From Sipunculus nudus (Eukaryota; Annelida; Sipuncula; Golfingiida; Sipunculidae), in contig CM049312.1 of the NCBI GenBank assembly GCA_026874595.1, positions 69,408,929-69,472,928 on the forward strand: DNA of 64,000 nucleotides, read 5' to 3'. Below the pieces are notes generated by a model. That model saw only the letters and a list, made by a program, of their open reading frames with translations. It was not told the DNA's origin and did not search any database. Below, piece after piece: positions 8,302 through 60,255 of this stretch; within the stretch, counting starts at the first letter, position 1; every line of letters begins with the position of its first letter. The position numbers were made by a program, and so were the translations under genes.

Positions 8302-8520
8302 TTATCTCTTCATTATTTTACAATAAAATGGCTTGGGGGTCACGGCAATAGTGACGTTAAAATCACGTGGATCGTGTGAAGGTAGACCCGCTACCGTTTC
8401 TGGTAGAAACGAGAACTTCTGCCACAAGGTGGCGATGAACAAGAAAACTCTTTTTCTGGCAAATGTCTCCCCAACGCAGGATCTTTGACCTGCTCCAAAA
8501 GGTATCAACCTGTTGAAGGC

Positions 8521-8602
<82 letters not shown>

Positions 8603-10366
8603 GCTGGTTCATTCTATACGGAAATGTCTTTGAGATAACGCGTGATAAGCCAACGAAACGGTCAAGAACCTTAACTGAAGCGCCTAAGCAATGACTCTTC
8701 AACTGTCAGTCTTTTGCCATATTTCTTTTTAAAGTCACAAAAATTGTTGCTTCTATTTCTGTCCCGATGTTCTTTTTTCTGTACTATGATCATTTTCGAT
8801 TTTTTTTATTATCCTCTGTTTGTCTATCTGATGTAGTATAATAGTATATAGATAACATTATCTCTAAATGCTGTTTCCCCTATGACAGTCAAATAGTTAT
8901 TTTTGCTCTAGAATAAAAGTCACAAAGCAGTCTTCTTCAAGACTGAAACGTTTGGTTCAGTTTCATATTTCCATTATATGTTGCTGCCAATGGATGGACA
9001 ATCCGAGAACTTCTGTATTTTATGACAAGTTGCACACTTGATATGTCTGTCTTAATGCTCTGAATTTTGTTAGATAAAATCTGTGTTGTACGTCGAATAA
9101 AACAAATTATTTCATCGTTGATATGGTAATGTATGTTTTCCGGGGTTTGAATCCCTCTCCTTTGTGCGTCAGTAATGTTTCAATATTTCTAAAATTGACA
9201 GCAAGTTTAGAGGAGAATATGCCTTCTATTTAACATAGTGTTATAACCATTAGAGATAATAACGACAGAATTTCACATTTATTGTATATCCTCATTCTCT
9301 CTGATCATGAACAAATTAGTTAAAGGATACCAATATAAAACGACAAAGTAACAACGCGCTTCTTGCATATTTCCTACAATTATTTGTCATATCTTTTGTA
9401 AATATGTGTAAGAAATCCCGAGTTTCCATTTTATATTAACACCTTGAATGAAAGAAAATAGACAATTATAATTTTATACAATTTATATTGATAAATTACT
9501 TAATTTAGTAAGGAACGTATTTCAAATGCATATCACATTTGCCCTGTTTGTATTCACCTCGGATCGTTTTGCCTTATGTCTGTACTATGTCCGTCATATT
9601 GTTTTCCTTTACGCGATTTTCAAAAATAAGGTCTAATATGCACTGTCGTTAAATATAAGATCAAACCGTGTTATTTCAATGATATAGTTCATTTGAATCC
9701 AGCAGCGGATGTCATATGTGTCAACACAACTTTTTAGTATGATTATGCTGTAAACTCCTTAAGGGAGTTTCATTGACACTGAATTTAACGATACGCTTAG
9801 ACCTTAGAAATTTGAAAGTAATATAAACCAGAAAAGCATTCAGAGAGCCAAGACCTCAGCCAAGGCAGCTGTTTACTCAATATGGCATGGTCAGAAATAC
9901 AGTACATTTCCTTAAAAGAATTCCTGGATCCAGAACGTGATCCGGACCACTCAAAAAATTGTATCAATTGTTCCCTGTATCATTGCCCTGCCATCCAAAA
10001 AATTTCATCCAACCCCATTAATAACCTTCGGAGTAATGTTGCTCAAAGACAGACAGACTAAGAGATAAACAAAAAAAACGCGGTCGAACACATAACCTCC
10101 TTGACGGAGGTAACACGCACAATAAACATTACAGCAGGAATGAAGGATTTGAGCGACTCGAGTTATAAATGCTGTCTGTATAGTTTACATTTAGGAAGAT
10201 AAAGATAATTGGGGAGACGAGAAGACGCTGCATGCCACTTACCTGGCACATGTTGGGTGATTAGGCGGTAATAACACTCCTTTTTCATCCAGAAAACGCT
10301 CGGGACGAAACTCCCACGGGTCCTTCCACTCCTTGTTGTGATGGGCTTCCCAGATGTTCATTAAAA

Positions 10367-10415
<49 letters not shown>

Positions 10416-11664
10416 TTGTTATTATATATGAACAGTTTTCATTACTGTAGTGCCAAATGAAAGTGAAAGAAATGTGTTTAAAATTATTGATAAACACAAG
10501 TATTCGGGTATAACACTTTCCATTAAAACCATTAAGACATCATCATTATTAGCTGCCAAATTTGCGGGTATACCCTTTGAATGCTGTCTGATCGTATATC
10601 TTTAGTATCGTCTGCTTTGCATTGTGGGAAAGACAATCTCTTTTACTCCGAAGTTTGACTTGCATTCCGTGATGACGTTGACCTATTATTCATCTGTAGC
10701 TTGTTGCACTTGTGGTTATACCGGAATCGTTAAAATCATATTTGATGCTGAAGTTGGACTTGATCCAAATTCGTCCTTACTGTAGTTAATATTTGATTTG
10801 TGTGATCTTATTCACTGAATTTACACTGGGTGATATGCGTGCTTGTAATGTTGTAATGTTTATTGTGCGTTTCTTCTGAACGTCAGGCCTTGAATAATAC
10901 GTACTTTAAACTACTTGTCCTTTCATCACCAAATTATGCAATCATCAGAAACGCCCATGTTTCAATTAAAAATAAAGATAACACGCACGGATTCCTGTAC
11001 AAAAGTTGTTTCCCTCATCACGATTCAGATCTAACACAAACCTAATTTTTGCCTATATTTGAATTTTCCTAGTGCTTATGGTTCGACGTTGGAGATTTCA
11101 TTGAATTTATATAGAACTGTTGGTGTGAATTGTTTAACAAACAGTGAAGAAGGTGAGAGGAGAATTCAAAGGCTAAAAAACAAACAAACAAACAAACAAA
11201 CAAAACAAACAAATGACAGAGGTTCAAACAGAGGGAAAACATGGATCAACGTATAACTTCAGAAACGATTTTCAAATATTTTTTTTTTACAAAACGACCG
11301 GTCTTACCACGGTACCCTTCTTAATGTCGTACCCGCCAAGTGTTGTATCCCGAGCTGCACACCGGGGGGCCAAGGTTGCGACACTCACATATCTTAGAAT
11401 CTCAAGTAACGTAGCATTCAAGAAGTGCATTTCTTGTCTGTGCTTAAGAGTTGGCATGATATGATGACCAATGACCCGGTCAATTTCATCTTGGAGTTTC
11501 TTCTGAACGTCAGGCCGATGCAGGCATATGAGGATCAAAGACGAAACAGAAGAAAACGTGGTGTTCACTCCTGTTAAAACAATGTAGTATACTAAAGCAC
11601 CGTGTAAACGTTTTCTCGTTTTATATCCAATTTTCCTGTGAATTGTTAATACACACTTATACCC

Positions 11665-11712
<48 letters not shown>

Positions 11713-14378
11713 TATATATATATATGTGTGTGTGATATTTATTTACCATAAAGCTTTTAAATCATGCGTTATTACTAAACTCTAAGGAACTTAGCATTAT
11801 ATGCAAATTATGATATGAACTTCTTTTTGTTAAAATGGCAATAGGAACCGATCAGTATTATATTTCTTTTGGCATTATTGACGTTTATTATTTACATAAG
11901 TCATTATTATTATGAATACAGACAAACAAGAATAATATGTATTTGCACACTGCTGCACAGTTTACCTCTGATTCTGCCAATCATTAAAAAGTAATATGTT
12001 TAATATCTGCTATGTATATATTGATTGTAAAATGCAAATACGAAAGGTTCACCTGCAAGAAACATCAATATCATAGCTCCAAGGATGTTGTTTTCGGTGA
12101 TCATAGACGTCCCATCGGGGGCGAGTTGGCATCGTCGAGCTTCAAGTAACATGTCCAAGAAACTTCGAATACACTTAGGGTCAAAGGATGCCTATAACCA
12201 AATATAGAAATGAAAATACAAACGCCATCTAAGTGCCTCTGCGTTTAAAAGAAAACTTTTATTGTAGGATAATTAGTAAGATTAAATTATACATTTAGCA
12301 TGATAACAATAATAATTAAAGGTCATAGGAAAAGTTTTTCAGAATTCCCTGCAAAGCGCTATTTTCCCTGACCGATGGACTAAACATATATATCATATCC
12401 CTTGTATGATAAATATTAAAAAAAAAATACAAGAAATAACGAATAAAATCAAATTTTTATTCAAACTGCAGAGGTCCGCAGCGGAAACGGCCGGGCGCGC
12501 ACTGCTAGGCATGTGACGTCACAGAGGGGAAACACTGCTCAGTGATCAGCCTGGACGAATGCTCGCATGCACTTATCCGTATCACTATCACAAGGGTCTA
12601 TAAGTTTATCATAGGAACTCATGCTATGGCCGGATTTTTGGGACACAGGAATACTTTGATGAACTTAAAGTGAACCTAGCTGTTCGGGTGCAGGGTTACA
12701 TGTATGTCGGACACTGTATTTTCAAGGGAAAATATAGAACCCTTTTTCTCCCGTATGGACGATCACAGAGGCTAGATGCTTCCCCGCAGATTTATTCGTT
12801 TCACCAACGCCAGACGTGGTTGTTTTCCAGTTGCATTGCCCACTGCTTGTAATTATCTGTGCGAGAACATGTTTAGAATAGCGCTTATAATTCAGTTCCT
12901 GATTAACTGTCATCGGAGAAATGTGCTTCACATAGTTTCGAGTGTTTGGTTGGCTTCCAGTCTTTCCTGCTTCCAGTCTTATCTGCTGTTGGATTGCTTA
13001 TACCTACTTTCCAAGCCTTCCTTGCCCGAACGGTTGCACATATTAAGCCAGTTGAGATCTTGTTGACATCGGTGGGCCGGGCACGCTGTCAGTCACATCG
13101 AACACTCATATTATTGTACGCATGCTCCAAGTGATTCGTAAAGGTGATTAACGGCAAAAAAAACATTAAAACTTCAAAATTTCAGGATTGGGAATTCCTT
13201 TAATGTTTGTCAGTTCCGTGATTTCGTCCACGATGTCGCAAAATCACTGGCTCTACAACTGACAAGCGGCTAGTCTCTCAACTGTTCCTAATAAGGTTTT
13301 TCTTTTAGTGGAAAACCAAACAGTGGCGTCCCGATCTAGAGCCATTTGTACAACCAACGAACCACCAGCAGTCGATCTTTACTGTTTTGTTTTGATACCG
13401 TATAGCTACGCTTATACAAAGAAACACGCAGCTTGCACATAGTGAGTACTGACGCAAAGCAAGCAGTTAGCGTGCTGCCAGCAATGCTTACAGCCCAGCA
13501 TGGCTACTGTGACATTACGGCTCATTCGGGCGCCGGTCACTCCCGTCTGTCTGTTTGAATGTCAAAGTCAAATTAAATGATGTTTTTATTGGATCTCGGG
13601 CCGATTTTTATTTAATTGAGGTCATCAGTGATAACATGTGATGTATTTAGCATTTATATTGCGTTTCAAATCTTTTCCTATGATCTTTAAGGATAAACAC
13701 GATTCATGTGGCATAACGGACTATGTCAGCCTCACCGCATTGTTTATTTATTTCTACTATTTCGGTTCCTTCATCTTAGAAGCCTTTTAGCAAGACGTGG
13801 AAAATGTACTCAAAATATATTCTTATACGAGCGCAATTGATAGGTGCTGGGTTTTATTTGTAATGCCCGAGGTAAGTAACTATGCACCCCAAGGCGCTGA
13901 GGTTAAGGCATTGGACAGGGGTATGAATATTTATACATTCTGTGTAATATGTTGTTTGACATGGACGGACGTTTCGCGAGCATGTGAATTTTGTATTTTA
14001 AGTACTAAACAGAATTTTTAATAAACTTATAGCATCAACGTGTGATGGTGCTCAGCGTGGCCGTAAACGACGACTGGGTGCAAATAACAGTGCAGCCGAG
14101 TTCGAGGGGACACAAGTGTGCAAACATATAGCGGTCGGGCGGAACGGAACGGAGAAGGAGGACAACAAGTCCATTATGTTACAGAGAGGGAGCTTTGTCC
14201 CATCGAACTCTTAATTATTTAATCTCCGTTTCGAACCTACTTTTAAAGATCACTCCGCCGAAATAGTATAAAAATCCCACGCTAAGGAATTCGCACGGGC
14301 TGCTCGTATTTGTGGACTATGAAGAAGTGTCACCAGGCCTGGATCAGGATGTTAGATCCTGCAAGTTACACTATCACC

Positions 14379-14443
<65 letters not shown>

Positions 14444-17012
14444 ATGTTATATCGGTTTGAATGAACATTTGTGAGGCCCAACACAACACCGAGTGGGAAG
14501 ACCCATATACGCACACATAGAAACACACCTATATTTTACGCTTATACGCACACTCGCGCACATGGACACCCACCTTTAAGGTGTTCATGCAGGCAATCTA
14601 GAGGAGTGATTTTAACGCATATACGCGCACGTACATACGCATATAGGCTGAAAGACACATGAAAACACTTGTCGTGGCCACGAGCTGACATTCCTTACAC
14701 AAGTTACCTCCATACAACGTCGTGGACGAGTGAACCAGTGATGAATCTGCAAGTGCTCGCTTAAACTAGGAGTGGAATGACCGGAAACAAGTCTTTTCTG
14801 GTGGGACACATACTACACAAAAAGGTCAACTATGGCATTAATAAATATTATAAAACACCCTATTTCAGTGTGTACTTGAATCCCTTGAATCCTCCATCAT
14901 TGTATACATAAATGGAGGACCCTTCTATGGGGAGTTGGCACAAAAAGTGGCCAGGTGACAAGATAATACGCTAGACATATATGGTATTCTAGGTAATTAT
15001 CATAAATACTGCGTTATTTGAAGATGTTATTTAGCCATCAAAATGTCAAATACCATTTGGTCTTTCCATCGCAGTAAATTATCTAGTCTGAACGGTTCAG
15101 AATTTTTGGGTTATTCCATTCATTATGCAAGACCCTGGTAGGGGGTCGTCCTGCAGATATGAGCCACACCCTGAAAATTAAGTCACCGGTACCAGCTGAG
15201 GGGAATAATTCTAATAGTGATTTTTGGCATGGTATACAACCTTGAAGTTAGAAAATGTCCGATAGCATTGTATTATTGGTAGCTTTCTGTGTGAATCAGC
15301 CCGTTTATATGCCTACATATTAATTGATTTGTATTCTCGAAAGGCTCATGAAATTCAATCCACCGGGTGCCAGCTTGACACCCTTGGGCAATTTTTGTAA
15401 TTGCACAAATTCAAAATGGCATTCGGCGCTCATTTTTAAATTTGCTGTAGTGAATAACAATATAGATTTAGAAAACTGTCTCCTTGACGTAAAATGTGGT
15501 CAAAAACTTTCACCATAATAGTTACATGCCACGATGCAACAATAAAGCAATAATAATCTAAAGTGAAGGCCGAAATGGCTGTCATTTTTCAAAATAACGT
15601 AATTTGAAAATAAGCCGTAGGTTTAACCGTTCAGTGATAGTTGGTGATTGGTTGTTTGGCTCTTGTTGTTTGCCCTTTAGCATAAAGGTCAAAGTAATTT
15701 ATATTCATGAGCATTTAATATGACATCTGGAGATGACATTTTAATAATAATAATAGTTATACTTGGTTTATTTATAGCACCAAAATCTCTGGGTAGTTAG
15801 TATTATCAAATACCATATATTTTGGTGTATTTTTGTTTTAAAATTGATCATAAATCAGTTTAAACATCTTAAAATCAACAAACTTTTGTTATGTTCACAT
15901 AAGAGAGCTAGAATAATATGGCTGAGTTATCCATTCTCATTTAAGCAATTATCGTTTATTTTGTATCTGATTTTGTATTTCGAACAAATAATTTTATTCA
16001 TCAGTATTTTCGTAGGAAAATAATGGTTTTTGATGTGTTTTACAAGGGATATGTTTTTATTCAATGCTTCCTCTGATCCAGTTTCTGTCTCATATACATC
16101 TGAATTTTGGTTGAAATGTAATGTTACCCATGGAAAATATGTATTGAAACTTTAGTGAAATGAAAGAAAAATATATTATTTTATATCAAATTACGTTTCT
16201 TCTGTATGTTATTGATTAGCTATGTAGGACTTGAGTCTGAACTTGGATTCGAGTTTTCCTGGACTCGGATTTTTACTCAGAATCGGAGGTCAGGACTGGA
16301 GATGTCCAGCCGAGTCCATCTGGAGTCCAAGAAAAAAGGCTTTAGCCTGCGATGTTCAGATGGGGGAACCCTCTCATATATAGAAAATTTAGACTGTATA
16401 TACGAAGCTTTATCCCTGCATCGGGAGCTGAATGTATTTAAACATCAGACAAAGGCATGCGAAAGTGTTACAAAAATAACATAATTTTTTTTTGTTATTT
16501 AAAATAACATCGCACATTAACTATTCAATAATCGCAGGCGATGCACTCCGTGAACAATACGGGTACATATTTTTTATACAGTTGGTTAGCTTTTCCCTTT
16601 CAGAGAAATATATTATTTTTTCTCCGTACTGTTCTACATTTTGTGTATTTTTTTCAAGAATTGTTTAGGATTAGAATAAATGATTAGAATAAATCATACT
16701 ATGATTAAAAATCAGAAATATTATTGGATCTTACCTTTGCCTCCTCGTACATGGGATTCATTGCTGCATCTCTTGCTTTTATGAATCGTTTTAGGCATTG
16801 TACGCTTTTCATTGGCAGCCAGCGGAGAAAAGGAAACAGATCCAGTTCAGCACCGTACCCTGGGGTTGAAATTACTATCATCTCGCTGACCATGGCATCA
16901 ATGTTTTTCGCTTCTGTGGAGTTTTTGTCAATTCTTCTCCCAATCAGCTTGAGGAAACATGTAATAGACGGACTTTTAAGTTTTTTGACAAACATACACA
17001 CATACACACACC

Positions 17013-20600: not shown

Positions 20601-21307
20601 TCATGTAAAGATCATTTCAAAAAATATATTTTGCCTTCAATAAAGATAAAACTCCATAAGCAAAGTGTTCTTGTCAATATATTCCACATACCTGACAGTC
20701 TGGTGTTTACATTAACACAAAAGAATGGCTAAGTTACATTTAATATAAGAATACTTACCAAACAACCTATAATGTTTGTTAATGATGCTCTCAGATCAGG
20801 TTGTGGATTTGACGGTTTCCCTCCAGTTTCTTCAAAACTATTCACCAACACTTCGAGCTCATTTTGAATTAATTCTTCAATCCGTGTGCTTTCTTCCCCG
20901 TAGGTCTTGATACTTGCATGCACCGTTTTTCTAAACAGAGATAGTGCTCTTGTGTATGGACCGACAACAAGATCGTTTCCTTCGTAAAAGCCGATGTTTG
21001 CCAGATACGTAGGTTTCAATCGATCAGCGAAATCGTACCCTTTCTTAACACACGCTTCCTGTATCAACTCTGTAGTGTTGACAACCACAATTTCTATTCC
21101 CATCAACTTGATGGTAAATATATCGCCGTACACTTTTGCACACTTTGAGAGGCCGTGATGCATAGCACTTGTTTTCACCTGCATAATGTTACCAAGAAAA
21201 GGCAAACCTGGAACACGTGGAGGTTTTCTAATCTTCCTACTCATTGCCCATTTCAGGAAGCGTGACAGAGCGAGCACTGCTATTAGTGCTGAAAGAATCC
21301 CCCACAT
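8302..21307 (-). CDS. Cytochrome P450, CYP2 clan (CYP17/CYP1-like), copy A
   Basis: Predicted heme-thiolate monooxygenase anchored in the ER; substrate unknown. Coding exons on the minus strand: 20759-21307, 16735-16947, 12053-12191, 11308-11570, 10243-10367 and 8302-8509, all with GT/AG borders, giving 498 residues (CYP17A1 has 508). The start is the Met nine bases after a CTCTCAG acceptor, a layout shared by all four copies, so a 5' UTR intron is likely. Visible parts: hydrophobic anchor at residues 2-20, hinge KPPRVPGLPFLGN (28-40), I-helix AGVNTT (300-305), ExxR as EILR (357-360), PERF (410-413), heme loop FGAGQRSCVG with ligand Cys441. Odd: the C-helix WxxxR reads LSLFR (122-126), and the I-helix acid is Asn303. 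Introns 1 and 2 are 3.8-4.5 kb and repeat-filled, unlike the compact copies C and D. Family call is secure; the subfamily is not. Confidence 0.93.
8524..8600. repeat. Compound (TA)n(GA)n microsatellite at a splice acceptor
   Basis: About 22 TA units followed by about 16 GA units. It starts about 15 bases from the acceptor of the heme exon of P450 A, so it occupies the 3' end of intron 5, where the branch point normally sits. Confidence 0.9.
9745..10125. repeat. Dispersed repeat ending in CCTCC...GGAGG hairpin
   Basis: Runs from a CTCCTTAAGGGAG hairpin through TGATCCGGACCACTC, a TTTCATCCAACCCCATT box and GACAGACAGACTAAGAGATA to ACCTCCTTGACGGAGGTAA. I recognise this arrangement as a repeat common in marine invertebrate and fish genomes, but cannot name its class with certainty. 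It lies in intron 5 of P450 A. Confidence 0.55.
10369..10411. repeat. (TA)n abutting acceptor of the PERF exon
   Basis: About 21 TA units directly adjoin the AG acceptor of P450 A exon 5 (exon end 10367). On the minus strand the intron ends TATATATATAG, so the usual pyrimidine tract is replaced by the microsatellite. Confidence 0.9.
11667..11735. repeat. (TA)n/(TG)n microsatellite
   Basis: TA repeat with one ATT interruption, ending in a short TG run. It lies in intron 3 of P450 A, about 100 bases upstream (minus sense) of exon 4. A short AAAC repeat lies near 11186-11213. Confidence 0.85.
12200..15154. other. P450 A intron 2, left part: unclassified sequence
   Basis: Intronic, no gene supported. 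The 12470-13570 stretch is less AT-rich than its surroundings and may be an old insertion. A (TA)n microsatellite lies at 14382-14435. At about 14600-14810 the minus strand has scattered Cys/His and an SLSEHLQIHH string reminiscent of a decayed C2H2 zinc finger, with frameshifts; this is too weak to call. Confidence 0.4.
15155..16490. repeat. Dispersed element, left inverted copy (P450 A intron 2)
   Basis: Matches 24790-26607 in reverse complement. Shared blocks include CACCGGTACCAGCTGAGG with TTTTTGGCATGGTATACAAC, the coumpound CGGACTC patch (16222-16330), and GGAACCCTCTCATATATAGA. A third partial copy in the same orientation is at 22795-23560. No coding sequence is recognised in it. It ends about 245 bases from P450 A exon 2. 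Confidence 0.8.
17014..17051. repeat. (TA)n microsatellite
   Basis: About 19 TA units after a CACA-rich lead, 67 bases upstream (minus sense) of the acceptor of P450 A exon 2 and directly next to the MITE at 17054. Confidence 0.9.
17054..17508. mobile_element. MITE with about 68-bp terminal inverted repeats
   Basis: The first 68 bases (GATTATTTAAGAAAATGTTC ... GTGTTTTCATGCATTTGCAA ... CTTCAAATG) recur in reverse complement at 17441-17508, giving a 455-bp element with long inverted ends and a non-coding interior. It sits in P450 A intron 1 about 100 bases from exon 2, flanked on both sides by (TA)n tracts (17014-17051 and 17577-17635). Superfamily not determined. Confidence 0.8.
17577..17635. 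repeat. (TA)n microsatellite
   Basis: About 29 uninterrupted TA units in intron 1 of P450 A. Confidence 0.9.
17640..20750. other. P450 A intron 1: unclassified AT-rich sequence
   Basis: No gene supported. A TTACGGAACCTA box is repeated at about 18901 and 18947. The stretch 19160-19760 has a different base texture (TCCAGAAACTTCTAG, GCGGGTAAGCCAG) and may be a degraded transposon end. The 20280-20480 part is a loose TTATCTTATTTTCT-type repeat. The open frames at 18015-18401 and 20328-20732 show no family features. Confidence 0.4.
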
Positions 21308-40668: not shown

Positions 40669-40787
40669 TGGATCACATGAAGGTATAACCTCTCCCTCGA
40701 TGGGGAAAGACGGGAATCTCTGCCACAAAGTAGCAAAGAAGAGGAAAACACTGTTCCTGGCAAATGTTTCTCCAACGCAGGATCATG
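40669..40787 (-). pseudogene. Relic of a fifth P450: truncated heme exon
   Basis: On the minus strand, an open fragment encodes SCVGETFARN, then FFATLWQRF and PIEGEVIPSCD: the middle of the last P450 exon, keeping the heme-ligand Cys. It lacks the start of the exon (FGxGxR) and its 3' coding end. Left of it, 40535-40668 matches the 3' flank of copies C and D (about 45190-45290 and 54800-54890), with about 0.5 kb missing. Right of it, 40980-41160 already matches the region upstream of those genes (about 50590-50770). The gene body has therefore been deleted, leaving this exon piece. It is too short and lacks splice partners to be functional. Confidence 0.85.
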
Positions 40788-43242: not shown

Positions 43243-43304
<62 letters not shown>

Positions 43305-45686: not shown

Positions 45687-45897
45687 TTAGTTTCTCTTCA
45701 TGATCTTACAGTGAAACGACCTGGGAACAATGGCAGCGGTTGTTTGAAAGTCACGTGGATCACATGAAGGTATAGCCTTTCCCTCGATGGGGAAAAACGA
45801 GAATCGCTGCCACAAAGTAGCGATGACGAGGAAAACTCTATTTCTGGCAAATGTCTCTCCAACGCAGGATCTTGAACCAAGCCCGAGTGGTATCAAT

Positions 45898-45899
45898 AT
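45898..45899 (-). other. Lost 3' splice site of copy C last exon
   Basis: On the minus strand the intron ends GATTATTTACAT in copy C and GATTATTTACAG in copy D (55507-55508). The G-to-T change removes the AG acceptor directly before the heme-binding exon. Confidence 0.88.
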
Positions 45900-46940
45900 G
45901 TAAATAATCATTTTGATAAAAAAAAACTTATTTACTGCACTCTATCTAGTCTCAAAAGACAAGTACATAGAATGAACATTGGTTCATTTCTATAACAGAG
46001 GATATATTCTGGGCGAATGTATTATAAATTATCCTTGGAATCTAAACCTACCGTTGCCTGCTTGTTCACAATAACAGGAGCCTCCTTATCACAGTTTTCA
46101 CCATAGTAACTTTTTATCCAAGACCTAATTGTTCCCATTTATGTCATGATCGCCCCATCTCATTCTTAATTTAACCTTGACATAACGACCCCCTTTTCAA
46201 CCAGCATTATATTCCTCTTTCTCTCCTTTTTTATCTTTTACATTTCATATTTTATGGGTTAGGCTACTCAAGTTTTATTTAATTAAGAGTTAATTTTGAC
46301 GAAGAGACCCTGGTTAACGCTTACCTAACACGTGTCGGGTGTTCGTGTGGAAGTAACTTTCCCTTTTCATCCAGGAAACGTTCTGGGTGAAATTCCCAGG
46401 GTTCTTTCCAGTCTGAGTTGTTGTTGGCCTGCCAAATGTTCATCAAAACCTATGGATATATACACGTACTTTTGCACTATTTAAAGTGTCACTTGAAGTG
46501 TTTTCACGAGAATATACCAAGATATTAAAGGATTGATTGCTGAATGCACACTGAAAGGCATGGAAATCTATGAAAATACAAGAGTAAATAATAATGACAG
46601 ATCCTAATTGTCCTTTTTATTATGTACTGTTGCCCGAAAAAAGGAAGGTACTTAGTAATTTTTTATGCCGTATCCAGGGAGAACCAAAGATTTATTTGGC
46701 CTGTCATATAATTTAACTGATTATCCATTCGCCAACGGTCCATCTTTCTACAAAAACCAAAAATATAAACAAAAAGACAAATATTTAAAATTTGCGAACT
46801 ATCTTAGACAGGATTACAATTTAAAATTATGGTTACTCTTAACTAGTTCTCACCCGGGTGCTGTTTTCAATGTCGTATCCTCCAACCACTGTATCCCGAG
46901 TAACACCTTTTGGTACAAGGGCGCCTACACTGACATATCT

Positions 46941-46943
46941 TTA
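46941..46943 (-). other. In-frame TAA within ExxR of copy C
   Basis: Copy D reads GAA GTA TTA AGA (E-V-L-R) at this place; copy C reads GAA TTA TAA AGA. The exon starts at 47116 with a two-base split codon, and 57 codons precede the stop in frame. Confidence 0.92.
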
Positions 46944-48016
46944 TAATTCTAAAAAAGTTGCATTCAAGTAGTGCATCTCCTGTCTGTGATGAAGTTCTGG
47001 TCGATTATGTTGACCAATTACACGATCGATTTCATTCTGTAGATTTTCCTGGACGTCAGGCCGGTGCAAACATATGAGCATCAATGACGACACGGTAGAA
47101 AACGTGGTGAGCACACCTGGAATGAAGTTTGTGTGTCATTGCTGGACATGTTTTCAGTCTTGTAATGAAAAATGCTCAATTACTGCAGTTTATAATGTTT
47201 TCGAAAGAAATTAAAATAACTCGATATCTATTATTATTGTAAATTTAAACAGCCGGTCGATTAATTTGAGTAACCACAAGGTATGAGTTTTCATTACCAT
47301 GTCGATAATGACTATTTCAGTAGATATAAAATGTCAGCAGTAAAGTAAACAGCTTGAAAAAAAGTCTGACGAATGAATAATTTATGGAAGTTTTTATTTA
47401 ATGAATAGGGATCATGTCAAAACCACAAAACTTAGTAAACATTATTGAATCTAAATTACCATATAGGCCTACATATAAGCCAGACGATCCCCGTCACAAT
47501 AAATACTAGCCCTCGACACACAAGGTGTGTCCGATAAGTAACGGGACTGGTGTCAGAAACAATTAATTTCAATTTCAAACAAAAAACTTTGTGGGTTCCC
47601 TGAACATTCGGCAGTTCCTTACCCCAAGAGAATAGCACTACTGGAACCACAACCGCGTTAACATGTTCTTTCTCTTTGTGGCTTATTTCGTTTCCTGAAG
47701 TGCACAGCGATTTTTAAAGGGACCTGTTTTAAAGACGTGGAAACCATAGGGAGGACCGAAGTGCCAGAGCTGATGGGCATCCTAAAAGAATCCTTGTAGT
47801 AGTGCACAAAAACGTTGCAAAGAAGGACAGGAAAGTGCTTTAGACTCGAGGTGGTGTATTTTTAAGGAGAAACCAGGTGCTTTGTTGTTTGGTATGAAAT
47901 TAATTTCTTGCGACACCAGTCAAACATTTTTTCTTTTCATTTTATATTCAACGGTTGGGATTTGAGGGTAACAAAACGCGCGGACGGACTACGGACAAAT
48001 GTGATCGCCGTAACAA

Positions 48017-48329
48017 AGGTGACCTTCAGTCAGTTTTTTATAAAGCAGTTAGAAAATTCTACTGAGCACCAATAATTTCCTTGCTAAAAGATAACATATC
48101 TTGCCCTATATTTAAATTTGAAATAAATGTATATGATATGCTCACCTGCGATAAACAAAGATGTCATGGACCCAAGGATGTTTTGTTCATTTAAAATCGA
48201 AGTTCCGTCAGAGTCTAGGTGACACTGTTGAGCTTGAATTAACATATCCACAAAACCCCGCATACATTTAGGGTCAAAGGAAGCCTACAACAAAGAAAGG
48301 TCAAATCAGTTTAAGGAATTCCGGAAGCA
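48017..48329. repeat. 313-bp tract identical between copies C and D
   Basis: Matches 57610-57922 base for base through intron 3, the whole I-helix exon and part of intron 2, while flanking intron and exon sequence differs by frequent substitutions and indels. Confidence 0.8.
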
Positions 48330-50403
48330 ATATGTTCTATGGTACATTATAATAATATTACATATTATCTTAACACGATAAAAACTGGTTTAACGTAAAC
48401 CTTGAATTATAAGATGTTATATTATTAAGTAAGCGTCATCCGAATGTGACTATCCTTCTATTTTCCGATCCTTTCTTTCCGTGTTCTCATCTGTCAAAAA
48501 TGCCGCAAACGTATTCCAAGCTTATCAGGAATGTACACGTGGAAGATTTCGGCATTGTTTTCATACTGTCCTACTTGTAATTTCTAGCGTTTTAGATTCT
48601 GTCAGATTAACACCCAGGTCGGCTTCTTACATTAATACCATAACACCATTACAGCACAGCGTGTGCCTTTACCATATATTGGCGTATTTTGCTCTTACCT
48701 TTGCTTCTTCGTACATTGGACCAAGTACGGGATCTCGCGCTGATATAAATCTCCTAAGACACTTTGTGCTTTTTATTGGCATCCAGCGAAGAAAAGGAAA
48801 TATATCTAGCTCTGCGCCGTATCCAGGAGTCCCTATCAAAATCATTTCGCTGACCATTTTGTTTAGGTTTCTCGCTTCAATAGAATTCTTTTCGATACTC
48901 CGCCCGATAAGCTGGGGAATAGAAAAATAGGATTTTTCATAAATCTGATTTAGAATTTCATAAAACAGATATGCATCAAGCGAATATTCTTGTTTAAGAT
49001 ACTTATTTAAATAGGATTCTATAATTTATTCATGGTACAGAAGATGATTACATTAACAGCTAATTTGGATTCAAAGATATAAAGACCAAGATAGTATTGA
49101 TTGATTTTGTTATTCAAGAGTACAGATCTAACCGCCATAAACAGATTGGTATTGATGGGAAGTAGTTAGTTAGAGCAACACAACTTTTTCTATTTTGTTT
49201 TACCTTCAGTTCCTCGATGCATATGCCATCAAATAAAGGGGCTTCTCGACTGATCTTATTTTCTGGATTGTATTTGTTCAAACCCCTTTATGTTTTCTTA
49301 TAAACTGCCATGTTGGGAAACCTCGTATTCCCATTTCATTCCTCCAAAAACATGGTCGTGTACTTTCGGCCATTATAAATGACAGTGCATTTTTTTTATA
49401 TATATTTGATTAAAGAGACAACATGTTTGTGTTGTATCCATAGTTATGAGTCTATTTTGTCTTAATCTTATGTTGAAGGCATCCTCTTAAGCTGAAGGCA
49501 ATATTGATTTTTATCATTCGTTCATGGCATCCCGTATAAATGCCTTTTTATTCATACAATTCCTTACATACAATATTTGTTCACTATCTGGTTTTGATAG
49601 AAGTCTTTTTTTAAAGTGTTCCTAGGTTGAAAAAGTGTCTTTCAGTACGGTGTATAGTAAATGAATTTTTATTAGCCACAATTCTAGGATGGTGTGAAAG
49701 GTCTAAAGAGCTTCTAGTTCTTACTTTTAAATAAAATTATATTTTTGATTCCCTTCATAAAACAGCTTCTACTGAAAAGAAAAATGGTTATTTCTTCATG
49801 ATAAGATACATCTCAGACGAAAATATTGGTTTGTACTCTTAATGGTATACGTACCAGACAGGCAATAATGTTTGTTAATGCCGCTCTCAAATCAGGTTGT
49901 GGATTCAAAGCTTTTCCTTTAGAGTGTTCATAATCGTCCATCAACGCCTCCAACTCATTTTGAATCAGTTCTTGTATCTGCGAGCCTTCTTCCCCGTATG
50001 TCTTAATGCTTGCATGCACAGTTTTCCTAAACAGTGAGAGTCCCTTTGTGTAGGGACTGAACGCGACATTGTTTCCGTCATATGTAGCGGCGTTAAGGAG
50101 ATACGTACTATTTATGCGATCAGGGAAATCATGACCTTTCTCTAAACAAGCCTCCCTTATCAGTTTTGAGGAAGTCAAAACCACAATTTCATGTCCCATC
50201 AAATTGATTTTATAAATGTCTCCGTATTTCTTTGCACACTCTGAGAGACCGTGATGTATAGCGGGTGGTCTCACCTGGTGGATGTTACCAAGAAACGGTA
50301 AACCGGGAACCCTTGGAGGTTTCCTAAGATTCTTCGTCGTGGCCCATTTATAGATGCGAGAAACAGCGATCACAGTTATTACTGCCACCAGAATTGCCAA
50401 CAT

Positions 50404-51000
50404 GCTGTCAATCTGTTCCATAAATGAAAACTAATATTGAAGCATATGTCACTTAATTTAATGTAATTGTGTGGTGATACAAATTTGACATAGGTTGCAT
50501 GTGATTGAGACCCTCGGTGTTAAAATAATGCAGTTTCAGTTAACTGAATGGCTAGGCAGTAATGACAGTTACCACATTTCTGTTCTACCACATTATTCTG
50601 TTTTATTTAAAATCATTCAAATGCTCGTGTACTGGAATCGTTTCACTCAAGGATAACCACTCGTTTGTCTAACTAATGTATTAGACACGGACTACAGGAA
50701 ACATGATGTAGGAATATATGACTTATGAATATCCATGAAAGAAACTTAGTTTAACACAAAAACAACTGTTGTGATCTTTTGTGGAGTGAATACTTTTTAT
50801 CACAAAATCCCAAATAAAATTAAACAACTCACCAGCAGGACACGATCGCCTTTCAGTGTATTTTTAGGAGGCCTGAACAATATGTCACGCCCTAGATCTC
50901 ATTTATGGAGCTGCTCTATCTGAAGACCTATAAACCTACAATTCGATCCCGTCACAGTGCATGCATTTTTATGGTTAATGTGGCGCTCGTAACGGACTAG

Positions 51001-51042
<42 letters not shown>

Positions 51043-54000
51043 ACATCGTACGTTACTGACTGCTTGACAAGTATCAAACACGGTAGCATATGCTATTTTC
51101 GGGAACTAAAGATTCGCGAATTGACACGGACCTGACTTTCGCGGGCTTGTTTTATTCGCGAATCGCATGGCGTTTTTATATTAAAATTGAAATTATACGT
51201 TAATAAATTTATTAAAAAATTAATAAAAAATCACATCAACGAGACCCTGCACTGGTTTTGCCAGTGATACACAAAGGGGCGCTGCGTAGCAAGATTGTGC
51301 AATTTGTGCTTCCATGATAAACAACGTGGAGAGTGATAAAGTAAAATTCCGGGTTATCAAAACCGTCATGAGTCAATAGACACATTTTGGTGTCTCTAAA
51401 AGAGTCTCTCTGGTTAAAATAATTGCTGACTTTTTAGTAATTAGGGGACAATACTTTTTTTGTCTTCAAGTTAAGGTTTACATTTAAAATTAAAAAGAAA
51501 ATATAAATATTGTTGTGATTGAGTTTTCTTTATTCTAAGAACGAGAACATATTCTAAGAAATACGTGTTCTTCACTTCAGTCTGTCCAATTTTCAACGAA
51601 ATGCCCTTAAATTTCAGCGTTTAAAACAAGGATGTTTTAGTGTGACTCTTTGTATCTTAATTTCACTAGCTATTAATGAAATTATGTTGGCGTATGGAAA
51701 CATGTAACGGACTCCAGGGTGCAATGAAGAATGTTAACTTGGTCAGGCGGCACGTAAATGCATACCTTCGCTCACTTTGTTTCAGTTATCTTTGCGGCCA
51801 AATAGCAATGGTCGTATTTACATCTTCACAACCACTGAACGACCTGATCATTGGCTACTCCTGGTAAGATAAGATTTGCTGCAGACTAATATTGAAATAA
51901 AGCTATCAGGGACAAAAAAAATGTGACTGGAAGTGTAACCCTGGACTGGGTGGACTTTGGTTGATATTCTGGGGAACTTAGTGTGTGGACCGAAACTGGT
52001 AGTTTAATAAAGTCACCAATAAAATGTGAATTTATGGACAGGGTTAAGAGGGCGGAAAGGTATCATGTATTATGGTCGAACACCAGGATTGATAAAGCTG
52101 TACAATATTTTGAGCTTACAGATAGGAGTGATGCAGGTGGAAAACGATTTTATGATACCCGGAATTTTCATGCAAGAGCCAGTTTCTCATCAAGAAAGCC
52201 TGACATCGCTTCTGATAACGCTGATAGAAGTAGTGGGCGAGACTACGGGTCAATTTGTCACTGATGGAATTTTCGGAGTGAAAGTTCTTTAAAACAGAGA
52301 TATAGCAGGCGTAAAAAGGTCCACTCTTGTATAAAAGGGAAAACATTTGGTCAGATATTTTCAGACGGGTCAGCCCAGGGAAGAAATTGGCCGTAATATT
52401 TGGATTAACGATCAAGAATGATTTGATATTCGGGTTGTGCAAAGTTAAAATAAAAAAAATAACAAAGAAGCAAATGACATCATAAAAAGGATCCGAAACA
52501 GTTAAATTTCGGTTAAAGAAAAAATTGTGACTGACGGTTATTCAGTATCGTCCTGTTTATCCTCATGACAAACATGTTATGTTCGGTGTTCTGTAAGTAC
52601 AGTAAACAGCAGATGCTTCACCGATTGGCCTGATTTACATGATGGGATTAACAATAAAGGTGTGTGTACAACTTGAAACCGTCGTGTCTCTCGTCACAGG
52701 AGCTCAAACATTGCGCCATTGTTACACGATTACAGTGACAACTCTTTAGTGGAATTTGTCAGAGTACAGCCCGTTTTAGCTGTTTTCTTGCCTTCTCCTG
52801 TATTCCCTATTGCTTACAGCCATTTCTCTGAAGGTCCAACCAGCTCATGTATTCTGTTTTGTCTATATATATAGCCGTTTTCATGCAATATGCATGAGCG
52901 AGGTCACTGTTCTGAATTCCTTGTGTATCACCGTTGTTGGCTCAACATTGTTAGGGTCTGTCCTTTTTTATTACTTTAACCATGTCAAATTCATGAAAAT
53001 ATGATAACTGAAATAATATTCTGTAATTATATCGGAAGGCTTTCTGATTACATTGGTTTCTAGACATTGTTTTGAGAGTTTTTTTTTCAATAAACTGCCT
53101 TGTCCCAAGTTAAATGTTAGCGCTGTCTTTTATATAGGTCAACTCGCTGATTTGGCAGTGAAAACGTCAACCTGTATGCGAGAATACGCCATTTGAGAAA
53201 AACAACACCTTCTGTCCCGGTTCCCGTCCACGCATTCAACTGGAGTATGCTCGCTGAAAGAGTCTGAATAAAGAGCAGTCACGCTTGATGCGAACATTCA
53301 TTTCATATATGTTTTAAGGCCAGGGTGAATGAAAAGAAAATAATAAAAAAAAATGATGAATAACCAAGACATATTGTGTGTGCCGCCCGTATACTTTGAT
53401 TATTAGTGTTAATTCACCATAAATATGTATACAGAACACTGTCTACCCGCCCTGCCCATGATAGCCCAAGATGTAGCATTCATAAAATAAATGTGTTTTA
53501 CCAGCGTCATTACGATTCGAGTGTATCACTTTTTTACACAGATGTGGCTTTTTATATATAAGCTCTGTTACTGTCCTTCACATTAAAATGCATATGATCT
53601 TTTTTTGCATGCTAACAGAGACCGCTCCATGCCGGGCAATTTATAGACACCCAGAAAAATGGTGCTTGTCAGGTCACAGATTTTCCATTACTGACATATA
53701 AGACATTCCTCACGATATCTTGTGTGCTCTAATATATATGTCAAATATTCAGAATTCCTTCGATATAGAGCACATACCTAAGCAGACCACCATAGTCTTC
53801 TCATTCAGGGGGTCAATTCCTATTCTCAATATAGGGGGACGGAGACTCCGACCCGCCCCGATACACACTCTCACATTCGCATAGGCTTGTAATGGGTTAT
53901 ACTATATTTACCCCACTCCATCCCTAATTCCACAATATAACGTAATAATAACAATAACGAAGTCGCGTAGATCGTGCATAGCGCAGACCAGGGATACTTT

Positions 54001-55295
54001 CACCCATCCCGAACTATACACCCTTGTGCTTTTTATTTGTGTTTTCTCTTTTCATTATGGATTAGCATACATAAATTATTTTTATAATAACGAAAAAAAA
54101 ATTAGTTTGCGGAAAGTTGGGGGTTTGGATTGTGCTAGACGCAAAACCATGTTTCGCCACCCGTAGATCGTCGAATCACTAAATCAATATACAATTTCTG
54201 ACTTTATATCTTTATACTTATTCGCATAATATGGTATTATGTATCCCTGTATGATGAGGGTGAGGTAATGTAATATGCAGCCTATAGTCAAGTATTTTCG
54301 CCAAGCGCAGACCGCAGTTACCCCCTCTTTTCCATGCACAGACCGATGGATGACGACCGATATACGATCACTATTCCAGGCGTGTTAAATTAGGATGTAT
54401 ACCACTTAACATATGTAAAACTAGAAACAATCGCCACAACATTGGTGAATAAATATATTATTAAACCTACGCATGAGGTCCACAGCATACTCCGTTTGCT
54501 CCGTTTGTTGTACGTTAATTTTTTTGGCGGATGATTTCTTGAAATATCAGGCAACAAACACTTCAGAAAAATGTTCTCTTAATTCAAAATTTATATTGAG
54601 TAGCCGACAAATATTCGCCTTCAAGTTGAATCTCGAATAGTTATGAGTAGACCTTCCTGATTTTAATGAAAAATTTATTTATGACCGTCCACCGCAATTT
54701 TCGTCTTGATACCGTAGGTTTGGCAATGTAAAGTATGTACGTTATTTCCGTGTTTTCCCAATCCACAGACCGCGGTTGCAACCAGTTTGCCTTTTTATGT
54801 CAGGGCTTTTAAGTTTTGCTCTCCTGCTGCTGTGCTGTGTGGATCAGATACATCCAAGTATAATGACCACTGCTCAAGAGGAGTATTTGGCTTAAACGTT
54901 TATTTTGAAGAAAATATTTAAGGTTTCCCCGTAAGCATTAACAGTTAACAAAAAAAATTGACTCCCAGATATCTGTTTCATTGATTTTCGAGTAAAACAT
55001 TATTTCCCAAGGCATAAAGAAGACACTAAAATAGGGTGACATAAAAGACAAATATTATAACAAACTGATCGGCTGCTGAATAAATATATCAAGCTACTCA
55101 AATGTGAAAAAGCTGAAAAGGAGTCGTCACTTATATACATAGACACATTCTACAAATATGATGACAAAACAGTCAGGAAAGGGGGAGAATACAAACGTGC
55201 GATTAAATAGTCAAATCTCTAATCCCAAGTCAGCTTTTCGATGGATAAGTATAGCTCTGAGAAATCATACAAAAAAGAGAAATAAAAATACAATT
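50404..55295. repeat. Tandem-unit intergenic sequence, second copy
   Basis: Upstream flank of copy C and downstream flank of copy D, aligning with about 40880-45686. Sub-blocks: 50590-50990 (upstream flank), a (TA)n microsatellite at 51008-51039, TTCGCGAATTGACACGGACC at 51114, 51650-52350, 52600-53080, 53095-53960 and 54130-54900. Open frames are not conserved between unit copies, so no gene is called. Confidence 0.75.
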
Positions 55296-58200
55296 TTAGT
55301 TTCTCTTCATGATCTTACAGTGAAATGACCTGGGAACAACGGCAGCGGTGGTTTGAAAGTCACGTGGATCACATGAAGGTATAGCCTCTCCCTCGATGGG
55401 TAAAAACGAAAATCTCTGCCACAAAGTAGCGATGAAGAGGAAAACTCTGTTTCTGGCAAATGTCTCTCCAACGCAGGATCTTAAGCCAAGCCCGAATGGT
55501 ATCAATCTGTAAATAATCATTTTGATAGGAAAAAAAACTTATTTACTGCACTCTATCTAGTCTCAAAAGACAAATACATAGAATGAGCATTGGTTTATTT
55601 CTATAACAGAGTATATATTCTGGGCTAATGTATTATACATTTTCCTTGGAATCTAAACCTACTGTTGCCTGCCTGTTCACAATAAGAGAAGTCTCCTGAT
55701 CACAGCTTTCACCATAGTAATTCTTTATCCAAGACCTAATTGTTCCCATTAATGTCATGATCGCCCGATCTTATTCTTAATTTCACCATGACATAACGAC
55801 CCCCTTTTCAACCAGCATTATATCCCTCTTTCTCTCCTTTTTTATCTTTTACATTTCATATTTTATGTTTCGACGATCTGCAAACAAGTATTTATAAACC
55901 TCTTTTGTTTGTCAGGTCATCCTGAATATCCTTGTAGGCTACTCAGTTTATTGGAGTTATAAGATAACAGCTTACCTAACACGTGTCGGGTGATCGTGTG
56001 GAAGTAACTTTCCTTTTTCATCCAGAAAACGTTCCGGGTGAAATTCCCAGGGTTCTTTCCAGTCTGAGTTGTGGTTGGCCTCCCAGATGTTCATCAACAC
56101 CTATGGATATAAGCACGTACTATTACACTGTTTAAAGTGTCACTTGAAGTGTTTTCACGAGAATATACCAAGAATGCACACTGAAAGGCATGGCAATCTA
56201 TGGAAATACAAGAGAAAATAATAATGACAGATCCTAAGTGTCCTTTTATATTATGTTATGTTGCCCGAAAAAAAGAAACGTACCTAGTAATTTTTTATGC
56301 CGTATCCAGGGAGACCAAAGATTTATTTGGCCTGTCATATAATTTAACTAGTTATACATTCGCCAACGGGCCATCTTTCTACAAATACCAAAAATATAAA
56401 CAAAAAGACAAATATTTAAAATTTGCGAACCGTCTTAGACAGGATAACAATTTAAAATTATGGTTACCCTTAACTAGTTCTCACCCGGGTGCCGTTTTCA
56501 ATGTCGTACCCTCCAACCACAGTATCCCGAGTAACACCTCTTGGTACAAGGGCGCCTACACTGACATATCTTAATACTTCTAAAAAAGTGGCATTCAAGT
56601 AGTGCATCTCCTGTCTGTGATGAAGTCCTGGTCGATTATGTTGACCAATCACACGATCAATTTCATTCTGTAGCTTTTCCTGAACGTCAGGCCGGTGCAA
56701 ACATATGAGCATCAATGACGACACGGTAGAAAAGGTAGTGAGCACACCTGGAACAAAGTTGGTGTTTCATTGCTGGATATGTTTTCAGTCTGGTAATGAA
56801 AAATGCTCAATTACTGCGTTTTATAATGTTTTCGAAGAAATTAAAATAAAATTATTGTCAATAAAAAACAGCCGGTCGTCTCCGCTGAGTAACGACAAGG
56901 TATGAGTTTTCATTATCATGTCAATAATGACTCTTTCAGTAGATAAAAAAATGTCAGCAGTAAAGTAAACAGCATAAAAAATTGGACGATTGAATAATTT
57001 ACGGAATTTTTTTAATGAAAAGGGATCATGTCAAAACCACAAAACTTAGTACACACTTATTGAAATTAAATTACCATATAGGCCTACATATAAGCCAGAC
57101 GAGTCCCGTCACAATAAATATTAGCCCTCGACACACAAGGTGTGTCCGATTAGTAACGGGTCTGGTCTCAGAAACAATTAATTTCAATTCAAAGAAAACA
57201 CTTTGTGGGTTCCCTGAACATTCGGGTGTTCCTTGTCCCGAGGAGAATAGTACGTAAGTACTTCTGGAACCACCACCGCGTTTAAATGTTCTTTCTCCTT
57301 GTGACTTATTTCGTTTCCTGAAGTTTGCAGGGATTATTTAAGGGACCTGTTTTGAAGACGTGGAAACCATAGGGAGGACCGAAGCGCCAGAGCTGATGGG
57401 CATCCTAAAAGAATCCTTGTAGCAGAGAGTAAGGGGAAAATGCTTTAGACTTGGTTTATATTTAAGGAGAAACCATGTACTTTGTTGCTTCGTATAAAAT
57501 TAATTTCATGCGACACCAGTCAAACATTTTTTTTTATATTCAACGGTTGGGATTTGAGGTTAACAAAACGCGCGGACGGACTACGGACAAATAGTGATCG
57601 CTTTAACCGAGGTGACCTTCAGTCAGTTTTTTATAAAGCAGTTAGAAAATTCTACTGAGCACCAATAATTTCCTTGCTAAAAGATAACATATCTTGCCCT
57701 ATATTTAAATTTGAAATAAATGTATATGATATGCTCACCTGCGATAAACAAAGATGTCATGGACCCAAGGATGTTTTGTTCATTTAAAATCGAAGTTCCG
57801 TCAGAGTCTAGGTGACACTGTTGAGCTTGAATTAACATATCCACAAAACCCCGCATACATTTAGGGTCAAAGGAAGCCTACAACAAAGAAAGGTCAAATC
57901 AGTTTAAGGAATTCCGGAAGCATTATGTTCTATGGTAAATTATCATAATATTACATATTATCTTAACACGATAAAAACTGGTTAAACGTAAACTTTGAAT
58001 GACAGATGTTATATTATTAAGTAAGCGTCATCCGAGTGTGACTTTCCTTCTTATTTCCGATCTTTTTTTCCGTGTTCTCATCGGCCAAAATGCCGCAAAC
58101 GTATTCCAAACTTATCAGGAATGTACACGTGGAAGATTTCGGCATTGTTTTCATACTGTCTTACTTGCAATTTCTAGCGTTTTATATAGTGTGCGGACCT

Positions 58201-60255
58201 TTACCTTTGCTTACGCTAGACAAATAAAAAAATGCCCTTTCATGCTCTCTCCTTTTTCACATATAAATATAAAGAGGATGAAACGTGGTAATCACTATAT
58301 TTAAGGAGAAAGGATCTGGTTTTTAAACATTTGATATGTTAATACAATTAACCATAAGTTCAAAAAGCCAATTTAAGGAAAGTCATTGTTCCTGGTAAAG
58401 ATTTTTTTAATGATTTTCTCTGCAGTCAGTCAAATGTATTAGATTGTATGATTCTGTCAGATAAACACCCAGGTTGTCTTCATACATTAATAGCATAACA
58501 CCATTACAGCACAGCGTGTGCCGTTACCATATATTTGCGTAATTTGCTCTTACCTTTGCTTCTTCGTACATTGGACCAAGTACGGCATCTCGCGCTGATA
58601 TGAATCTCCTAAGACACTTGGTGCTTTTCATTGGCATCCAGCGAAGAAAAGGAAAGATATCTAGCTCTGCGCCGTATCCAGGAGTCGCTATAAAAACCAT
58701 TTCGCTGACCATTTTATTTAGGCTTCTCGCTTCATTAGAATTCTTTTCGATACTCCGCCCGATAAGCTGGGGAATAGAAAAATAGGATTTGTCATGAATC
58801 TGATTTAGAATTTCATAAAACAGGTATGCATCAGGCGAATATTCTTGTTTAAGATACTTATTTGAATAGGATTCTATAATTTATTCATAGTACAGAAGAT
58901 TATTACATTAACAGCTAATTTGGATTCAAATATATAAAGGTCAAGATAGTATTGATTGATTTTGTTATTCAAGAGTACAGGTCTAACCACCATAAACAGA
59001 TTGGTATTGATGGGAAGTAGTTAGTTAGAGCAACACCACTTTTTCTATTTTGTTTTACCTTCAGTTCCTCGATGCATATGCCTACAAATAAAGGGGTTTC
59101 TCGACTGATCTTATTTTCTGGATTGTATTTGTTCAAACCCCTTTATGTTTTCTTATAAACTGCCATATTGGGAAACCTCGTATTCCCATTTCATTCCTCC
59201 AACAACATGGTCGTGTACTTTCGGCCATTATAAATGACAGTGCATTTTTATATATATTTGATTAAAGAATCAACATGTTTGTGTTGTATCCATAGTTATG
59301 AGTCTATTTTGTCTTAATCTAATGTTGAAGGCATCCTCTTAAGCTAAAGGCAATATTGATTTTTATCATTTGTTAATGGTATCCGGTATAAATGCCTTTT
59401 TATTCTTACAATTCCTTACATACAATATTTGTTCACTATCTGGTTTTGATAGAAGTCTTTCTTAAAGTGTTCCTGCGTTAAAAAAGTGTCTTTCAGTACG
59501 GTGTAGAGTAAATGAATTTTAATTAACCACAATTCTAGGATGGTGTGAAAGGTTTTAAGATTTTCTAGTTCTCTCTTTTAAATAAAATTATATTTTTGAT
59601 TCCCTTCATAAAACAGCTTCTACTTAAAAGAAAAATGGTTATTTCTTCATGATAAGATAAATCTCAGACGAAAATATTGGTTTGTGCTCCTTGATGGTAT
59701 ACGTACCAGACAGGCAATAATGTTTGTTAATGCCGCTCTCAAATCAGGTTGTGGATTCACAGCTTTTCCTTCAGTGCGTTCATAATCGTCCACCAACGCC
59801 TCGAGCTCATTTTGAATCAGTTCTTGTATCTGCGTGCCTTCTTCCCCGTATGTCTTAATGCTTGCATGCACAGTTTTCCTAAAAAGTGAGAGTCCCTTTG
59901 TGTAGGGACCGAACGCGACATTGTTTCCGTCATATGTAGCGGCGTTAAGGAGATACGTACTATTTATACGATCAGAGAAATCTTGACCTTTCTCTAAACA
60001 AGCCTCCCTTCTCAGTTTTGAGGAAGTCAAAACCACAATTTCATGTCCCATCAAATTGATTTTATAAATGTCTCCGTACTTCTTTGCACACTCTGATAGA
60101 CCGTGATGTATAGCGGGTGGTCTCACCTGGAGGATGTTACCAAGAAACGGTAAACCGGGAACCCTTGGAGGTTTCCTAAGATTCTTCGTCGTGGCCAATT
60201 TATAGATGCGAGAAACAGCGATCACAGTTATAACTGCCACCAGAATTCCCAACAT
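55296..60255 (-). CDS. Cytochrome P450, CYP2 clan (CYP17/CYP1-like), copy D
   Basis: Intact member of the array, predicted ER monooxygenase with unknown substrate. Coding exons: 59707-60255, 58554-58766, 57739-57877, 56485-56747, 55976-56100 and 55296-55506, giving 499 residues, all with GT/AG borders. The ATG lies nine bases after a TGGAACAG acceptor, as in the other copies. Features: anchor MLGILVAVITVIAV, hinge KPPRVPGLPFLGN, C-helix LSLFR in place of WxxxR, I-helix AGVLTT (acidic residue replaced by Leu), ExxR as EVLR, PERF, heme loop FGLGLRSCVG. Compared with copy C it has SKLRREACLEKGQDF (C: SKLIREACLEKGHDF) at about residues 80-94. It is the best reference for repairing the reading of copy C. 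Introns are short (0.4-1.0 kb). Confidence 0.93.

Follow-up and report, generated by a model that had tools for sequence, protein, structure and literature searches.

The human cytochromes P450 (P450s) CYP2D6 and CYP51A1 are competent O2-activating (Compound I) monooxygenases, and CYP2D6 retains the tryptophan (Trp) of the C-helix. In its PDB sequence (3qm4) the I-helix of CYP2D6 reads AGMVTT, and the PDB sequences of CYP51A1 (3jus, 4uhi) have AGQHTS, with Phe at the position of the C-helix Trp and Lys at that of the Arg. CYP17A1 has AGVETT in the I-helix, which contains the acid-alcohol pair E305-T306, and WxxHR in the C-helix. In the bacterial CYP152 peroxygenases the acid-alcohol pair is replaced by Arg-Pro (PMC5818669), and the annelid Capitella teleta has AGTATT in CYP3052A1-A2, GGTATT in A3 and AGTSTT in A4 (PMC4229089, Table 2) as well as AGQHTS in its CYP51A1 (PMC4229089). 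Variation of the I-helix is called "not uncommon" in PMC8110760. Here we describe an array of four P450 genes, A to D, from Sipunculus nudus that lacks both the I-helix acid and the C-helix Trp. The array lies in a stretch of 64,000 nucleotides, hereafter the window (assembly GCA_026874595.1, contig CM049312.1, positions 69,408,929 to 69,472,928 of the forward strand), which is part of contig C7 in the 1.43-Gb genome.

Gene models were obtained by comparing the open fragments of the window with one another and then refining the splice sites. This resulted in four six-exon genes, all on the minus strand within 8302-60255 and with common splice phases of 0,0,1,0,2; the outer limits of the models coincide exactly with those given for the array in an earlier, sequence-only reading (the original prediction). 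A (21307-8302), B (33783-27801) and D (60255-55296) are intact and encode proteins of 498, 499 and 499 amino acids, and C (50403-45687) is a pseudogene with a stop within ExxR, an exon-6 acceptor changed from AG to AT and PLG for PFG. At residues 122-126, where CYP17A1 has WxxHR, all four genes read LSLFR. The acid position, residue 303, is Asn (AAC) in A, Phe (TTT) in B and Leu (CTC) in C and D, and the I-helix reads AGVNTT, AGVFTT and AGVLTT, respectively, against AGVETT in CYP17A1. The acid-alcohol pair of CYP17 was thus not found in A-D, which have N/F/L303-T304 at this place, and neither was the Arg-Pro pair of the CYP152 peroxygenases. Arg126 and Thr304 are present in A, B and D, and their ExxR, PERF and PFGxGxRSCVG motifs are all intact; the sequences of these three start with a hydrophobic N-terminus followed by KPPRVPG. 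The original prediction had named the same C-helix and I-helix readings and the same retained motifs, and the refined models reproduce them.

Two ways in which the missing residues might have escaped detection were considered. Intron 3, which has a GT donor and an AG acceptor in all four genes, interrupts the I-helix motif behind the first base of its Gly codon (A|G), and because of this split the motif is invisible to a six-frame scan. A search of the four gene bodies for G-x-[DE]-T-[TS] immediately following an AG gave zero occurrences on the gene strand; alternative splicing that would restore the acid was rejected, as no acid-bearing exon-4 start is present there. Seven W...R[KR] strings occur on the same strand of these gene bodies and none of them is the C-helix: one is in the N-terminus of A, two lie between stops in B, two are in another frame of exon 2 (in C and D) and the last two, located in intron 1 of C and of D, have surroundings that do not resemble a C-helix. 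The possibility raised with the original prediction, that a different choice of exons restores the motifs, therefore found no counterpart in the genomic sequence of the four gene bodies. It had also been considered that the Trp and the acid sit elsewhere in the chain. This is contradicted by the PDB alignment against zebrafish CYP17A1, which is gap-free over both the C-helix (DIAFADYSSTWKFHRK against DLVVGPYTRALSLFRK) and the I-helix (FGAGVETT against FLAGVNTT).

All three intact proteins matched the Pfam p450 family (PF00067) over the whole domain, with E-values of 1e-95 to 1e-99 and 321-335 bits (cut-off 22.8). In a phmmer search against the PDB, zebrafish CYP17A1 (6b82) was the first match (E 5e-72), and the first 52 of the 60 matches listed (295 in all) were CYP17, 1, 2 or 21. 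By these sequence comparisons the array is assigned to animal P450 clan 2 (CYP1/2/17/21-like). We consider it probable, at about 0.68, that A-D form a clan-2 tandem array of which A, B and D would be reductase-driven microsomal monooxygenases with a Thr/water proton relay.

The intact genes appear to be under purifying constraint. Over 497/499 aligned columns, the ratio of nonsynonymous to synonymous substitution rates (dN/dS) calculated with NG86 was 0.215 for A-B, 0.174 for A-D, 0.185 for B-D and 0.334 for C-D, and the corresponding YN00 values were 0.186, 0.138, 0.179 and 0.353; dS was near 1 among A, B and D. These values bear on the reading in which the array is degenerating and the losses are decay towards pseudogenes. 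Such decay would fit the pseudogene C and the relics and truncated copies in and beside the array, among them a fragment of the last exon of a fifth copy with one in-frame TGA (40666-40785, minus strand). Against it, the frames and splice sites of A, B and D are intact and their dN/dS is 0.17-0.22 at dS near 1, on which decay as the cause of the losses was rejected for these three genes. We regard it as quite unlikely for the array and, for A, B and D, as largely refuted.

Relatives of the array were searched for in the same genome; the search scored best candidates only, and all genome counts are lower bounds. With exon 1 as query at least 70 matches were obtained, including, besides A-D, 14 exons of nearly full length with 41-51% identity and, on contig C11, four further matches at about 30%. 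The exon-4 search returned at least 82 matches, from which 24 family pieces were assembled: those of A-D, of two copies left of the window, of the 14 paralogs and of the four C11 genes. Two of the 24 come from pseudogenes and one from a copy without exon 1, and a further piece (L065) was dropped as it had no readable P450 frame. The I-helix acid (Asp or Glu) was absent from all 24 pieces. At its site Leu was found ten times, Met and Phe four times each, Ile twice, and Gln, Ala, Val and Asn once each. The site of the catalytic Thr held Thr in 16 pieces, Ser in five and Asn, Ala and Pro in one each, which leaves the hydroxyl in place in 21/24. Among the 88 exon-4 columns the acid site ranked third in entropy, which bears out the proposal that the acid position is free to vary among paralogs. 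For paralog pairs compared on exon 1 and exon 4, dN/dS was 0.16-0.37 in 10 of 11, and the eleventh had a saturated dS; among the 12 genes prepared for this comparison one, P11, carries a stop in exon 1. The proteins are constrained on average and the acid site is not.

Outside the array the remaining motifs are well preserved. The heme-Cys loop FxxGxRxC was kept in all 18 non-array genes (exon-6 search, 18 pieces), with Q1 alone having Ser instead of Gly after the loop, and 17 of the 18 had no stop in their exon-1 and exon-4 pieces. That these 18 genes lack the acid as well, nearly all with open pieces and all with the Cys loop, again argues against decay of the array. The losses could also mark non-catalytic heme-binding proteins that act as carriers, sensors or decoys, an idea that draws on the loss of two catalysis- or heme-linked residues and on the variability of the acid site. 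However, A, B and D have all retained Thr, Cys, ExxR and Arg, and the presence of the Thr counts against this explanation because a non-catalytic protein would not need it; we hold it to be the least probable of the alternatives, and highly improbable.

Several family members depart further from the array. The catalytic Thr is altered in some of them, with GLLAP in L060 (C7:78.96 Mb) and Ser-Ser in L058, L059, L023 and L024; the relatives without a hydroxyl at this site read GLLAP, GILPT and GVFNT. Another array copy, with AGVITT, a full Cys loop and open exons 2-6, is located left of the window in the opposite orientation, at C7:69369055-69382958 (L046, L047). The exon-1 search did not find its exon 1, and the copy is either 5'-truncated or has a replaced first exon. 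The second copy left of the window reads GVLTT and has a stop.

The C-helix Trp has a different distribution. Of the 22 family genes 14 retain it, and the eight without it are A-D (Leu), P05 (Tyr), which is a neighbor of the array 94 kb away (C7:69.563 Mb), and three genes on C11 (His, His and Gln). The Arg of WxxxR is kept in 22/22. A misaligned Trp was rejected, as Trp stands at exactly this column in the 14 genes and CYP17 aligns there gap-free. The C11 genes (about 33.36-33.53 Mb; L027-L030 and L061-L064) are four divergent family members without the acid, three of which have independently lost the Trp as well.

A tree was calculated from 30 rows (the 22 family genes, six other P450s of the genome and two CYP17A1), using exons 1, 2 and 4 where available. 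The tree is unrooted, and the tree checks gave a warning of long branches meeting where the outgroup is attached. All 22 family genes fell on one side of a 100/100 branch without either CYP17A1 row; within them A-D formed one group (98/96), as did the array together with P05 (99/99). A single point of the unrooted tree joins the family, CYP17 and the remaining P450s, so that sisterhood to CYP17 is neither shown nor excluded. Two changes at the Trp site are required on this tree, one in the array plus P05 and another in the three C11 genes. Of the original prediction, a divergent P450 group with a variable acid site is supported, and this group of 22 genes may be lineage-specific. The coupling of the two losses is not supported, since they are separate: the acid is gone from 24/24 pieces, and the Trp from 8/22 genes through about two losses. 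Judged from these sequences, the I-helix acid was most likely missing already in the ancestor of the group, and the simplest history would be a single early loss of the acid with a later loss of the Trp in the array lineage.

Of the other 57 matches of the exon-4 search, 50 were read (40 as short pieces and ten from loci already in the set) and seven were unread; 36 had the acid and 14 did not. Ten of these 14 are pieces of single-exon P450s spread over contig C7 at 15.0-36.6 Mb (L037, L079, L083-L085, L089, L091-L093 and L102), in which the acid was absent from 10/10 pieces read. Examples of their I-helices are GAGVTTV, GPGLGTV, VPGMATV and IPGISTV, and in-frame stops are present in at least two of these ten pieces. 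Apparently they represent a separate loss of the acid, because L037, the one included in the tree, groups with an acid-bearing gene. With 14 of 50 other pieces lacking the acid, ten of them single-exon P450s, acid loss is not rare in this genome and apparently occurred more than once.

Taken together, the array would derive from the large clan-2 (CYP1/2/17-like) group of animal P450s through an ancestor without the I-helix acid, after which the site would have changed freely, mostly between hydrophobic residues; the C-helix Trp would subsequently have been lost too, in the array and in its neighbor P05. A, B and D would be membrane-bound and receive electrons from NADPH-P450 reductase, and the protons would be delivered by Thr304 and water instead of a carboxylate, a situation also found in CYP2D6 (Val) and CYP51 (His). 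The gain and loss of copies in tandem suggests xenobiotic or diet-linked substrates. CYP17A1 homologs have been reported in bivalves and need not use the vertebrate substrates there, as stated in a 2025 review of molluscan endocrinology (PMC12965858). None of the papers listed by a literature search, which covered mainly freely accessible articles, described an acid-less P450 group of molluscs or bivalves.

The original prediction had proposed an altered oxygen chemistry that is peroxide-driven, isomerase-like or electron-poor. In such P450s (peroxygenases, or CYP74- or CYP5/8-like enzymes) activation of O2 would no longer be needed, which could account for the loss of the carboxylate, for that of the Trp in the array and for the few relatives without the hydroxyl. 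However, peroxygenases have Arg-Pro (PMC5818669), and the array has N/F/L-Thr; the heme Cys loop and the C-helix Arg are standard and the Thr is kept. Moreover, neither peroxide-driven nor isomerase chemistry follows from loss of the acid, the Trp or both, because CYP2D6 without the acid and CYP51A1 without either residue are monooxygenases. We therefore did not retain this proposal, which we judge very unlikely. The array is an unusual P450 branch, not proof of new chemistry.

Some observations weigh against an ordinary monooxygenase. The large majority of metazoan P450s retain the I-helix motif, according to PMC8110760. In CYP17A1, the mutations E305G and T306A reduced hydroxylation 10-15 fold, as reported in PMC13312268. 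In addition, the losses in the array are accompanied by other differences from CYP17A1 (C-helix His to Phe, Ser after the Thr pair, no "RP" and two deletions), and for this reason CYP2D6 may be a poor analogue. A, B and D could be natural analogues of CYP17A1 E305G, in which a slow second proton gives poor Compound I and a long-lived ferric peroxo-anion attacks a carbonyl substrate as a nucleophile, by C-C cleavage or deformylation. Among solved structures CYP17A1 matches best, the acid is gone from every family piece, and C-C lysis by the two mutants showed no significant change according to the authors, who attribute it to the peroxo-anion (PMC13312268). The lyase rates of E305G given in that paper are, however, mixed: with 17-OH pregnenolone the rate dropped from 0.76 to 0.21 per min, and with 17-OH progesterone it increased from 0.34 to 0.48 (PMC13312268). 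Vertebrate CYP17 performs both reactions with the acid present. As CYP2D6 and CYP51A1 are Compound I monooxygenases without the acid, they too argue against this explanation, which we consider unlikely. Less credence still is given to its extension to the whole group as a gene-rich natural counterpart of E305G, consisting of C-C lyases or deformylases that would have abandoned rapid delivery of the second proton and act through the ferric peroxo-anion instead of Compound I, with the array furthest along this path and its Trp-to-Leu change loosening the heme-propionate contact.

The exons of the array, all on the minus strand, are placed as follows. In gene A, exon 1 (20759-21307) contains the Met, the hydrophobic N-terminus and LSLFR, exon 2 (16735-16947) is followed by exon 3 (12053-12191), whose last base opens the Gly codon of the I-helix, exon 4 (11308-11570) contains GVNTT and EILR as ExxR, exon 5 (10243-10367) contains PERF and exon 6 (8302-8509) contains PFGAGQRSCVG and the stop. 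Gene B consists of exons at 33235-33783 (LSLFR), 32214-32426, 31182-31320, 30723-30985 (GVFTT, EVLR), 28811-28935 (PERF) and 27801-28011 (PFGAGARSCVG and stop). Those of gene D are at 59707-60255 (LSLFR), 58554-58766, 57739-57877, 56485-56747 (GVLTT, EVLR), 55976-56100 (PERF) and 55296-55506 (PFGLGLRSCVG and stop), and LSLFR and GVLTT are also present in pseudogene C. C and D were made by a tandem segmental duplication (41633-60726), in which 41.6-50.9 kb and 51.3-60.7 kb are 84-90% identical with a step of about 9.6-9.9 kb. AT-dinucleotide tracts that form a near-palindrome were observed at 60780-61153, about 0.5 kb upstream of gene D.

Other features of the window are repeats. A minisatellite with a 28-base unit, 25 copies and a higher-order period of about 110 occupies 4418-5111, and its long open frames are probably repeat artefacts. 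Two inverted-repeat pairs, 15170-16478/24807-26591 and 36180-36824/39317-39961, lie in an intron and in spacers, are 79-87% identical and are possibly mobile elements; one open fragment from each pair was compared with Pfam and gave no match over the cut-off. Within intron 4 of gene B, a plus-strand open frame of 196 amino acids (29519-30106) had a sub-threshold reverse-transcriptase match (E 0.065) and is perhaps a retroelement scrap.

If some 20 genes can dispense with the acid, the acid-alcohol pair known from textbooks would matter less to the clan-2 P450s of animals than is implied by motif tables. Such families could be missed or downgraded by annotation filters in which [AG]Gx[DE]T[TS] is mandatory, and genes missing any Prosite motif were counted as fragments in PMC8110760. 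In addition, the paralogs amount to a set of natural mutants, with N, F, L, I, M, Q, A and V at the acid site and Trp, Leu, Tyr, His and Gln at the C-helix site, which could be used for testing proton delivery and peroxo-anion chemistry.

Compared with known P450s, the array resembles CYP17A1 (zebrafish 6b82, human 3ruk) in the AGV-x-TT register, in ExxR and in PFGAGxRxCxGE. It differs from CYP17A1 in having N, F or L for the acid E305, Leu for the C-helix Trp, Phe for the His and Ser for the Trp after the Thr pair, in the lack of "RP" after ExxR and in two one-residue deletions, in substrate recognition site 5 (SRS5) and in the HHN-KEW stretch. CYP2D6, which is of another family, shares a hydrophobic residue (Val) at the acid position together with a retained Thr pair. 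CYP51A1 belongs to a different clan and is similar to the array in lacking both the acid and the C-helix Trp, but unlike it has the polar residue His at the acid site and Lys where the array has Arg. Compared by their tabulated motif alone, the annelid CYP3052A1-A4 are similar in their non-acid I-helix residue. The acid is replaced in CYP152 as it is in the array, but the array, unlike CYP152, keeps the Thr and has no Arg.

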